Of a stretch of DNA of 23,651 nucleotides, positions 2,733-14,557 are shown piece by piece. The DNA comes from a virus. The stretch is from IMG/VR virus record IMGVR_UViG_3300044614_001392, positions 1 through 23,651 of that record. One strand, 5' to 3'. Below the pieces are notes generated by a model that searched no databases, was not told where the DNA came from, and was given only the letters and a program-made list of their open reading frames with translations. The position numbers and the translations under genes were made by a program. The stretch's first letter is position 1. Each line of letters begins with the position of its first letter.

Positions 2733-3169
2733 GGGTATATTTGCAACTTGCCGCCTTGTTACTTGTGTTGGTAGCAATGACTTATAGAACGTGCCACAGA
2801 ACGAACATTGAGCCATTTAATGTCGGCCATAACCTTGATAGTTTACTCAATCAAACCGAAGTGTTACGTGAACGTGCAAGGTTGGCCGAAAGCCAAAGTA
2901 GAATACGAGATACCGTTTATGTTACAAGGGTTAAGTACATTCGCACCATTGCACCTGCGGAATGTGATACTTTTATTCAGTTGGTGGTCCAAGAGTGCGA
3001 TACATTGATACAGATTAAAGAAGTTGAGATTGCGGTTAAAGATAGCGTAATTGTTGCCGATAGCACGCTCATTGTAGCGCAACATAAAGAGATTAAAAAA
3101 CAGCGCAGGCACAAGCGCATTGCGGTATTGGGGGCGGTTATGATATTTATTTTGTCAATATTAAATTAA
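2729..3169 (+). CDS. Spanin-like membrane protein with coiled coil
   Basis: A 146-residue protein with an N-terminal membrane segment (about residues 3-18, LQLAALLLVLVAMTY), a long middle rich in Glu, Arg, Gln and Ser that should form helices or coiled coil (LRERARLAESQSRIRDTVYVTRV and KEVEIAVKDSVIVADS), a basic KKQRRHKR patch and a C-terminal hydrophobic stretch (about 130-145). The N-terminal anchor plus periplasmic coiled coil resembles Rz-type spanins, which help fuse inner and outer membranes at lysis. Two membrane segments differ from classical Rz, so the assignment is tentative. It is the last gene before a terminator. Confidence 0.55.
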   Translation: MRVYLQLAALLLVLVAMTYRTCHRTNIEPFNVGHNLDSLLNQTEVLRERARLAESQSRIRDTVYVTRVKYIRTIAPAECDTFIQLVVQECDTLIQIKEVEIAVKDSVIVADSTLIVAQHKEIKKQRRHKRIAVLGAVMIFILSILN

Positions 3170-3181
3170 TTACTATATTTG
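3151..3181 (+). promoter_or_regulatory. Bacteroidetes-type promoter before a terminator
   Basis: TTTG at 3151-3154, a 19-base spacer, and TATATTTG at 3174-3181. Transcription should start near 3186. A terminator hairpin follows about 25-60 bases downstream with no coding sequence between, so this promoter would make a very short RNA unless readthrough occurs. Confidence 0.65.
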
Positions 3182-3201
3182 AGCACGTTTTCATAGGCGT
3201 T

Positions 3202-3258
3202 AAATTTGTTTTAAAGGGCAGTTCAGAAATGGGCTGCTTTTTTTGTTTTAACAAATTT
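3202..3258 (+). terminator. Intrinsic terminator with nested inverted repeats
   Basis: AAAGGGCAG (3213-3221) pairs with CTGCTTTTT (3234-3242), using two G-T pairs, and runs into a seven-T tract. An outer pair, AAATTTGTT (3202-3210) and AACAAATTT (3250-3258), encloses it. It ends the spanin-containing operon and also any RNA from the promoter at 3151-3181. Confidence 0.6.
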
Positions 3259-4362: not shown

Positions 4363-4491
4363 TAACGTTTTGCAGCTACAAGAAGTTGGCGATTTCGGAG
4401 ACGAAAACTGTCTGCCAGCACTGAACTTGATACGAAGCACAAAACTTCATATGACCACTGAACCGCCAATTTCTTGTAGGTGCTGTTAGCT
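4360..4491 (+). repeat. attC-like palindrome C
   Basis: Opens with TGATAAC (4360-4366) and closes with GTTAGCT (4485-4491). Arm 4376-4391 (CTACAAGAAGTTGGCG) pairs with arm 4464-4479 (CGCCAATTTCTTGTAG) at 15 of 16 positions plus one G-T. TAACGTTTTGCAG on the left and GTGCTGTTA on the right are shared with sites B and H. The loop is about 72 bases and holds no gene start. It is the clearest palindrome of the set. Confidence 0.8.
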
Positions 4492-10081: not shown

Positions 10082-10700
10082 GCTATTTCAAATACATTGC
10101 AGCCAAATAGGTAAGATAATGAGCAACTCCCGCACCAAGGGCGAGTTATCCCAAACCTGTCAAACGTTCCTGCGCGAATGGTACGCAAATGACCGCGAAG
10201 AAATACGAAGCAAGTACATCGACAAGGGTAATATGGTTGAACTTGACCTTATTGACTTTATGGCCGAGCAGTTGAACCTCGGAATGGCCGAGAAGAACAC
10301 CATTACGATGCACAATGAGTATGTTGTTGGTACGGCTGATGTTGTGACACGCGACACAATCATCGATGTTAAAGCCGCGTGGAGTATCAAGACCTTGCAC
10401 GATGCCGTTACGAGTGGCATCAATTCCGACTATGAATGGCAAGGGCGCGGTTATATGATGCTATGGGATAAGCCGAAATTCGTGGTGTTTCACGGCCTGC
10501 TCAATACACCAGAGGAAGCTAACTACGGAGTGGAGGTCAGTTACGATGATATACCTGCGGAACATCGTTGGGTAGCGTATAAGGTGCAACGTGATGTTAC
10601 CATTGAGCAACAGATAATACAGAGGGTGATTGAGTGCCGGGAGTGGTTGGAGCGGTATGATGAGGCGGTGCGAAATTCGATAGGCCGCTTGCATACTTAA
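10074..10700 (+). CDS. YqaJ / lambda-exonuclease-like recombination nuclease
   Basis: A 208-residue PD-(D/E)XK nuclease. E56 lies in GNMVELDLIDFM, D89 in YVVGTADVV, and D98-V-K100 in IIDVKAAWS; these are the catalytic acid, second acid and D-x-K of the YqaJ viral recombinase group. A Gln-rich helix follows (WQGRGYMMLW), as in lambda exonuclease relatives that line the channel. Such enzymes chew double-stranded ends 5' to 3' for single-strand annealing. No Bet/RecT-type annealase is obvious in the window; the protein upstream may substitute. Confidence 0.8.
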   Translation: MDKLFQIHCSQIGKIMSNSRTKGELSQTCQTFLREWYANDREEIRSKYIDKGNMVELDLIDFMAEQLNLGMAEKNTITMHNEYVVGTADVVTRDTIIDVKAAWSIKTLHDAVTSGINSDYEWQGRGYMMLWDKPKFVVFHGLLNTPEEANYGVEVSYDDIPAEHRWVAYKVQRDVTIEQQIIQRVIECREWLERYDEAVRNSIGRLHT

Positions 10701-10718
10701 AATAAATTAGTATATTTG
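10688..10718 (+). promoter_or_regulatory. Promoter of structured RNA 1
   Basis: CTTG at 10688-10691, a 19-base spacer, and TATATTTG at 10711-10718. The -33 element lies within the last codons of the nuclease gene. Transcription should begin near 10723, right at the structured RNA. Confidence 0.7.
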
Positions 10719-10722
10719 CAAC

Positions 10723-10821
10723 ATTGTTACGGTTCGACATTAAAGTAACATAACCTTATTGACCCATTTAACCGAGTACAGAAGTCGAACCCTGTACGAA
10801 GTTAGATGGGTTTTATTTTTT
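10723..10821 (+). ncRNA. Structured RNA 1 with kissing loops and U-tract
   Basis: A region of about 100 bases. Hairpin 1 is GTTAC (10726-10730) with GTAAC (10745-10749). An 11-pair stem, ACCCATTTAAC (10762-10772) with GTTAGATGGGT (10801-10811), carries at its tip a second hairpin, GTACAG (10776-10781) with CTGTAC (10792-10797). The two loops are complementary over 8 of 8 bases: GGTTCGAC (10731-10738) with GTCGAACC (10784-10791). A T-rich run (10812-10821) follows directly. It could be a small RNA ending here, or a leader controlling the gene at 10822 by attenuation. I cannot match it to a named RNA family. Confidence 0.6.
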
Positions 10822-10971
10822 ATGAAATCCTACATCATTTACTCACCCAACGGTAAGAAACACACACTAACTGCCGAAAGTTTCTACCATGCGGTTCAAA
10901 TCGCAAAAAAATCAGATAATTATCTATTTGCAGAGGCCGATTATTTTAAACTTAATACCGAACGCAAATGA
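10822..10971 (+). CDS. 49-residue protein below structured RNA 1
   Basis: A small protein (MKSYIIYSPNGKKHTL, then AESFYHAVQIAKKSDN) with a short beta-alpha pattern and no known family. I start it at ATG 10822, directly after the T-run, because an in-frame start at 10759 would make the structured RNA coding. The lack of a normal leader is odd: if the RNA upstream terminates, this gene needs readthrough. It overlaps the next gene by four bases (ATGA). Confidence 0.55.
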   Translation: MKSYIIYSPNGKKHTLTAESFYHAVQIAKKSDNYLFAEADYFKLNTERK

Positions 10972-12386: not shown

Positions 12387-12417
12387 TTTGAATATTGAAA
12401 TATAAATTATACATTTG
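12387..12417 (+). promoter_or_regulatory. Promoter of structured RNA 2
   Basis: TTTG at 12387-12390, a 19-base spacer, and TACATTTG at 12410-12417, all just after the stop of the primase-like gene. Transcription should start near 12422, at the first hairpin of the structured RNA. Confidence 0.75.
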
Positions 12418-12421
12418 CAAG

Positions 12422-12550
12422 CATCGGAGTAACGAACCGATTTTACATAGATTGATATAAAACATTAGAAGTCCTAATAGTTAAGTGCAAGGTGTCAATC
12501 CCTTGCTTGCTTCGTAAGCAAACTTAACTAATAGGACTTTCTTATTTTTT
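12422..12550 (+). ncRNA. Structured RNA 2, perfect three-way junction
   Basis: A 17-base outer stem (12470-12486 with 12522-12538, a single A-A mismatch) encloses two hairpins with no unpaired base at the junction: GCAAGG (12487-12492) with CCTTGC (12501-12506), and TTGCTT (12507-12512) with AAGCAA (12516-12521). The first loop, TGTCAATC (12493-12500), is complementary to GATTGATA (12450-12457) upstream, eight pairs with one G-T. A leading hairpin, ATCGG (12423-12427) with CCGAT (12437-12441), comes first, and a T-run ends the region. The plan repeats that of RNA 1: promoter, hairpin, long stem with a loop that pairs upstream, T-run, small gene. Confidence 0.65.
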
Positions 12551-12558
12551 AAAACATT

Positions 12559-12744
12559 ATGAAAAATACAAAAACAAAACAACAAAGATTAGATTATTTT
12601 GCTGGGTTAGCAATGCAAAGTTTGATTTTAAAATCAAAAGAAAACGCCCATTTGTTAGACAAAGTCAGCATAAAACAAATATGTTTTATGTCAATTCAAT
12701 TTGCAGAAGAAATCATTAATCAAATCGACAATGGAAAAATTTAA
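12559..12744 (+). CDS. 61-residue protein below structured RNA 2
   Basis: A small Lys-rich helical protein (MKNTKTKQQRLDYFAGLAMQSLI) with no recognised family. It starts 8 bases after the T-run of the structured RNA and overlaps the helicase gene by 14 bases. It may be a regulated leader gene of the replication operon. Its position parallels the 49-residue gene below structured RNA 1, although the two proteins are not visibly alike. Confidence 0.55.
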   Translation: MKNTKTKQQRLDYFAGLAMQSLILKSKENAHLLDKVSIKQICFMSIQFAEEIINQIDNGKI

Positions 12745-14305: not shown

Positions 14306-14440
14306 AAGTAATCTTACTAAAATTACTATTACTAACTAACTATATGATAATCAGCAAAGTAATAAATTCGCAAAAAGTGAACATAACTACGGTGTTTTTT
14401 CGCAATATAAGAAACGTGGGAGTTTTCCGTATTTCTTTAT

Positions 14441-14557
<117 letters not shown>

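Follow-up and report, generated by a model that had tools for sequence, protein, structure and literature searches.

The viral sequence analysed here, a 23651-base record that we refer to in its entirety as the window, carries between positions 10688 and 10821 an RNA element (RNA1) in which the loops of two hairpins contain complementary eight-base segments, K1 and K2. Comparison with sequences from related phages indicates that this loop pairing is real, the eight-base match of one leader being replaced by another eight-base match elsewhere. Our findings suggest that phages possess a family of control RNAs that has so far gone undescribed, and we give an even chance to the reading that RNA1 is a terminated leader, or attenuator, from which an RNA of ~100 nt is released while some transcripts pass, with the loop pairing steering the choice. 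It adds to the known structured RNAs a family that Rfam does not contain, in phages in which gene timing is poorly known; its carriers are many uncultured phages, distant kin of Flavobacterium and Cellulophaga phages.

Anatomy of RNA1

An earlier note on this DNA had described a promoter followed by two hairpins, an eight-base match between their loops, an 11-pair stem and a T-run ahead of an ATG at 10822, and all of these parts are present in the sequence:

10689..10718, + strand: promoter, with a -33-like TTG at 10689-10691 and a -7 box, TATATTTG, at 10711-10718; 19 nt between
10725..10750, + strand: 5' hairpin H1, TGTTAC/GTAACA at 10725-10730 and 10745-10750; read from sequence, fold and covariation
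10731-10738, + strand: loop segment K1, GGTTCGAC, in the H1 loop
10762-10772 with 10801-10811, + strand: terminator stem T, ACCCATTTAAC/GTTAGATGGGT, 11 pairs including one G-U; encloses H2
10776-10797, + strand: inner hairpin H2, GTACAG/CTGTAC at 10776-10781 and 10792-10797
10784-10791, + strand: loop segment K2, GTCGAACC, in the H2 loop; the K1-K2 match is kept in relatives
10812..10821, + strand: terminator T-run, TTTATTTTTT, directly before ATG 10822; a T-run is common in the family
10822..10971, + strand: 49-aa ORF, starting right behind RNA1; without a Pfam, PHROG or PADLOC match

The Bacteroidetes promoter consensus, as given in the part of the source available to us, is TTTG at -33 and TAnnTTTG at -7 (PMC7366714), and the RNA1 promoter fits it except at one position of the -33 box. 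The nested fold of RNA1, computed without the loop pairing, has a predicted energy of -31.9 kcal/mol as compared with a mean of -18.98 for shuffled sequences (z -4.63, with 0 of 200 shuffles as good). The K1 and K2 8-mers each occur a single time on the + strand of the window, and no other (antisense) partner for either of them was found within the window.

No part of the window matches Rfam at the gathering score, and searches with RNA1 and with RNA2 (a second leader, described below) up to an E of 5 returned only matches far below that score, such as mir-4081 and snoR31. These searches bear out the view that the element belongs to no named family; a literature search, thin on subscription papers and made without preprints, found no description of such an element.

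Gene neighbourhood

Phage replication and packaging genes surround RNA1, and the window virus is a phage of Bacteroidota-type bacteria. The genes are arranged in the order exonuclease-like gene (matching the exonuclease family phrog_5715, and lying 5' of RNA1), RNA1 leader, 49-aa ORF, PD-(D/E)XK-like gene, BT4734-like (primase-like) gene and RNA2, after which come the 61-aa ORF, and genes for a DUF5906 protein similar to phage primases, for a methylase and for a terminase. A search for tyrosine-type integrases detected none in 18 of 18 relatives' records, which are possibly incomplete, and among genomes taken one per species one of 79 matched stretches codes for a protein related to the primase-like one; by these two checks the relatives look non-temperate.

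Several other features of the window lie apart from the leaders. Between 3919 and 6175 small-gene cassettes follow one another, and every one of them lies between the arms of an imperfect 15-nt inverted repeat of its own, written GTTA... / ...TAAC (3919-3933/4352-4366, 4485-4499/5014-5028, 5141-5155/5829-5843 and 5961-5975/6161-6175). We take these ends to be reminiscent of integron attC ends, yet here they match cassette by cassette. Inside the cassette region lies a further 23-nt inverted repeat (4372-4394 and 4461-4483; 87% complementary, 66 nt apart). Within 3151-3240 a promoter match is followed by a short hairpin and a T-run, with no ORF start directly behind, and this stretch may specify another short RNA; an alternating TA/AT run at 14440-14480 lies 3' of the DUF5906 gene.

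Loop complementarity in related phages

Relatives were collected by two protein searches (43 and 78 loci) and by a profile search from which 80 of 140 were kept, many of them overlapping earlier loci. We also searched with a loop-blind pattern that specified only the H1 stem and its flank and left the eight loop letters free. This pattern was found in 54 contigs, and all 44 of the 44 testable leaders contain, within the next 90 nt, an exact complement of their own eight letters; of the remainder, two leaders are cut short where their piece ends, and the other eight matches lie elsewhere and are due to chance. The 44 leaders comprise three loop types, GGTTCGAC (17 leaders), GGTCTCAC (14) and GATTCCAC (13), and the natural matched loop pair of one relative reads GGTCTCAC/GTGAGACC. 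A first pattern that held both loop sequences was too loose and was dropped; among the matches listed for it most were unrelated contigs, and the true elements were biased towards GGTTCGAC.

The region 5' of relatives of the 49-aa ORF gave a similar picture. There are 41 distinct stretches of this kind, 35 of which possess both promoter and T-run and were selected independently of complementarity; five of the 35 were not fetched by relatedness, namely L044, L072, L099 and L117, which were fetched with loop letters, and L001, the window. When the first 40 nt after the -7 box were compared with the rest of each leader, an exact complement of at least eight bases was found in 33 of the 35, compared with 4.4% of shuffles, and the matches in these 33 are of several unrelated sequences. 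In the remaining two, L157 and L159, a six-base match between hairpin loops (GGGCAG/CTGCCC) can be seen by eye, the longest run reported by the script being a different, AT-rich one of seven bases. The six other stretches have no such leader directly upstream of the 49-aa relative.

An alignment of 24 leaders of the RNA1 type has 94.3% of its cells paired and two-sided changes in 20 of 31 pairs, with a covariation of 0.489 as compared with 0.190 in shuffled alignments (reached by 0 of 500) and at most 0.096 in slid versions. All four helices covary together in this alignment. The K1-K2 helix is paired in 24 of 24 rows, with four of its eight pairs changed on both sides; because the rows came from a scan that demanded loop complementarity (ten of them from loci fetched with loop letters), this complete pairing is in part so by construction, a constraint of which the loop-blind result is free. 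Matched swaps can also be seen within near-identical frames: L288 carries CTCTCAC/GTGAGAG where L361 carries CTACCAC/GTGGTAG, and only five of 85 other positions differ. The covariance search in related phages that the earlier note had proposed as a check has yielded compensating changes, those in the loops included, both in the alignments and in the two complementarity counts.

A second leader, RNA2, and a third type

RNA2 (12423-12551) has two loop-loop pairings and precedes the 61-aa ORF, and we treat it as a second member of the RNA1 family:

12387..12417, + strand: promoter, TTTG ... TACATTTG
12423-12441, + strand: first hairpin, whose loop ACGAA (12432-12436) matches TTCGT (12511-12515)
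12450-12455 with 12495-12500, + strand: second pairing, GATTGA matching TCAATC
12469-12486 with 12522-12539, + strand: terminator stem; T-run at 12540-12551
12559..12744, + strand: 61-aa ORF behind RNA2; without a Pfam, PHROG or PADLOC match

RNA2, aligned in nine sequences of which the window is one, has a covariation of 0.442 as compared with 0.160 when shuffled. Both loop pairings are 100% paired across the nine rows, with two-sided changes at one of five and four of six pairs, respectively, and a matched change distinguishes L140 (GATTGAC/GTCAATC) from L150 (GATTCAC/GTGAATC). A third leader type, GTAGGAG/CTCCTAC, is found on the minus strand in L254, L263, L278, L279, L282 and L340, and in some relatives begins the operon of the other strand, before a methyltransferase or other genes.

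Spread of the family and its position before genes

We scanned for elements with a promoter, a hairpin, a terminator with a T-run and a loop match of at least six bases, using reversed sequences as the null. The scan found 56 distinct elements in 247 sequences (2 in the reversed set) and 72 in 320 sequences (again 2 when reversed), with matches counted as distinct strings since the input sequences overlap, the same contig having been fetched repeatedly. From 79 elements of 32 loop types we kept 73 elements of 26 types, six types having been discarded as chance before this count. A looser early scan had a poor ratio of signal to noise and was dropped in favour of this stricter one.

When the T-run condition was removed and a loop match of at least seven bases was asked for, there were 83 matches as compared with 7 in the null; five or more of the nine bases behind the stem are T in 65 of the 83 and in 0 of the 7, so the terminator-like form ascribed to the stem beforehand holds up. 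In 72 of 72 testable elements (one is too short) the stem is followed, after 8-28 nt (median 19), by the start of an ORF of 30 codons or more. The genes that follow are unrelated to one another, the 49-aa ORF and primase-like, helicase-like, nuclease-like and methylase-like genes being among them, and across the 26 loop types the elements share shape and not sequence. No such leader lies right behind the exonuclease gene in four exonuclease-gene relatives (L289, L301, L304 and L309), and no convincing element was seen in the regions taken from six cultured Bacteroidetes phages.

A terminated leader as the proposed mechanism

Comparison of the related sequences shows a promoter motif, two hairpins, a stem with a T-run that resembles a terminator, a loop pairing and a fixed position before a gene. 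That the terminator is functional in the host we infer from its form, and read-through would be regulated. The order of promoter, folded RNA, terminator and gene argues for an attenuator, since the gene would be reachable only by read-through, whether from the leader promoter or from upstream.

According to this proposal RNA1 would head a phage operon as its leader and be transcribed from a promoter of the primary type used by its Bacteroidetes host. RNA polymerase would start at or just 5' of H1, and an intrinsic terminator some 100 nt further on would end part of the transcripts, freeing an RNA of ~100 nt, the rest reaching the gene 8-28 nt beyond. K1 in the loop of H1 would pair with K2 inside the terminator hairpin, and this pairing, which could form before the second terminator arm exists, may set the share of read-through. 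Pairing within one RNA would most likely delay closure of the terminator and favour read-through, and if K1 or K2 were occupied by another molecule of this RNA, termination would be allowed; the sign of both effects is a guess.

The idea that loop pairing competes with the terminator-like stem, and so makes a switch, was part of the original proposal, and it finds partial support. With one sequence per loop type, predicted folds of an RNA ending before the second terminator arm have the K segments paired in 20 of 26 types, and full-length predicted folds have the terminator stem closed in 26 of 26, which suggests that the loop pairing comes first and could affect the timely closure of the terminator; these predictions would suit a switch of timing. 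RNA1 is not a classical either-or switch, however, since the loop helix has no base in common with the terminator stem and the helices all covary jointly. The four helices can coexist as a pseudoknot, and the structure does not require a switch.

Loop types and action in cis or in trans

The loop pairing might also work between molecules. A possibility that we consider well less likely than not is that the terminated leader made by one copy of the phage forms loop-loop pairs with nascent leaders of the same type made by other copies. On this reading, each operon would sense the amount of its own RNA, such that a co-infecting phage of the same type would be shut off or switched on and other types ignored. 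Replacement of loop letters in matched sets would be expected if the letters carried a specificity, as described for the c4 RNA of P1 and P7 (PMC12197685), and here it is indirect evidence. If this were true, the loop types would amount to RNA-based compatibility groups among phages without a detected integrase. The matched loops found in nature are ready-made variant pairs, with which a simple reporter test could separate action in cis from action in trans.

The idea that the loop letters evolve unusually fast was not supported: between leaders that are close relatives, the loop arms show no significantly higher rate of change than other positions, and among the 45 closest of 377 leader pairs one reached p=0.021, uncorrected. 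Placed on the exonuclease tree, the loop types require 14 changes as compared with a shuffled mean of 15.3, and 59 of 200 shuffles are as low. The types thus look freely reshuffled with respect to the neighbouring exonuclease gene, on a tree in which 15 of 28 inner branches are open; because that tree is poorly resolved, the reshuffling does not demonstrate selection. Different loop types within one locus match each other in at most six bases (12 distinct loci with at least two matches, some of these doubtful).

Alternative explanations

That the element is a passive attenuator, with a fixed ratio of terminated to read-through RNA and a loop pairing that serves as a compact, nuclease-resistant 5' structure and senses nothing, strikes us as rather doubtful. 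It would accommodate the coexistence and joint covariation of the four helices, the lack of a trans partner in the window, and the unrelated downstream genes, which make no gene-specific signal evident, but on its own it leaves the repeated matched loop swaps unexplained. An unlikely reading is that the leader, once folded, remains attached to RNA polymerase and protects it against downstream pausing and termination, as put of phage HK022 does. Hairpins do lie at the starts of the transcripts of several operons, one of them on the other strand in relatives, and put consists, in the available part of the source, of two stem-loops 3' of the early promoters (PMC9378689). According to the same partial account putL and putR share sequence (PMC9378689), whereas the elements here do not, and the solid elements have a T-run terminator of their own. 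Slightly less probable again is a free-standing stable RNA, acting on host or phage targets as a decoy or regulator and standing before a gene by chance: the short promoter-to-terminator unit, its strong fold, and a shape kept while the sequence is free would suit such an RNA, but the ORF at 8-28 nt in 72 of 72 elements leaves no space for a second promoter, and read-through is needed.

Two further readings appear far less probable. If the hairpins acted as DNA, at a site of recombination or replication, one might point to inverted repeats near replication genes and to the reshuffling of leader types against the exonuclease gene (14 changes as compared with 15.3 in shuffles); the fixed order of promoter, element, T-run and ATG on the coding strand and the G-U pairs in the stems make this highly improbable. 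A type III toxin-antitoxin system, in which the RNA would be the antitoxin and the ORF behind the terminator the toxin, is barely plausible. The order of promoter, pseudoknotted RNA, terminator and ORF resembles that of ToxIN, but searches of Pfam, PHROGs and PADLOC assign the 49-aa and 61-aa ORFs to no toxin family, RNA1 has no repeat array, and the same leader type precedes unrelated genes.

Comparison with known systems

The terminated leader proposed here has its nearest counterparts among phage RNAs. In IsrK of the Salmonella prophage Gifsy-1, as far as the available text of the source goes, one promoter gives rise to a terminated short RNA and a read-through mRNA with a very short first ORF, and the short form acts on the long one (PMC4825925). 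RNA1 resembles this partial picture of IsrK, in anatomy only, in its promoter, short RNA with an intrinsic terminator, and short ORF behind. It differs in that no gene for a Q-family antiterminator lies upstream, where the phrog_5715 exonuclease is found instead, in that the loop complementarity lies inside the leader itself, and in the absence of an Rfam match.

The excerpts available on the c4 RNA of P1 and P7 describe complements, likely in loops, to sites in phage transcripts, which underlie the heteroimmunity of P1 and P7 (PMC12197685), and those on the CI RNA of P4 likewise describe a phage RNA with complementary sequences matching phage transcript sites (PMC4825925). Complementary segments in a phage RNA are common to these and to RNA1. 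Unlike in the C4 and CI RNAs, so far as these excerpts describe them, the complement of K1 is the loop of a terminator hairpin and not a ribosome site; K2 ends at 10791, 30 bases before ATG 10822. With the putRNA of HK022, as partially described, RNA1 has in common two hairpins close to where early transcripts begin that act, or here would act, on transcription, whereas the put features listed there, shared sequence and contact with the zinc domain of the RNA polymerase beta-prime subunit, include a sharing that is absent across the 26 loop types.

A metabolite riboswitch was considered and rejected, as there are no conserved binding-site letters (the 26 types have unrelated sequences) and no Rfam riboswitch match. 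In the kissing loops of RNA I and RNA II that control ColE1 copy number, complementary loops likewise have letters that can be changed in matched sets; there the loops belong to two separate RNAs from opposite strands, whereas RNA1 is one transcript. RNA1 agrees in part, and with none in full, with IsrK, C4/CI, put and type III antitoxin RNA, and we file it as a phage terminated-leader RNA whose defining feature, as yet unnamed, is a loop-loop pairing into the terminator.
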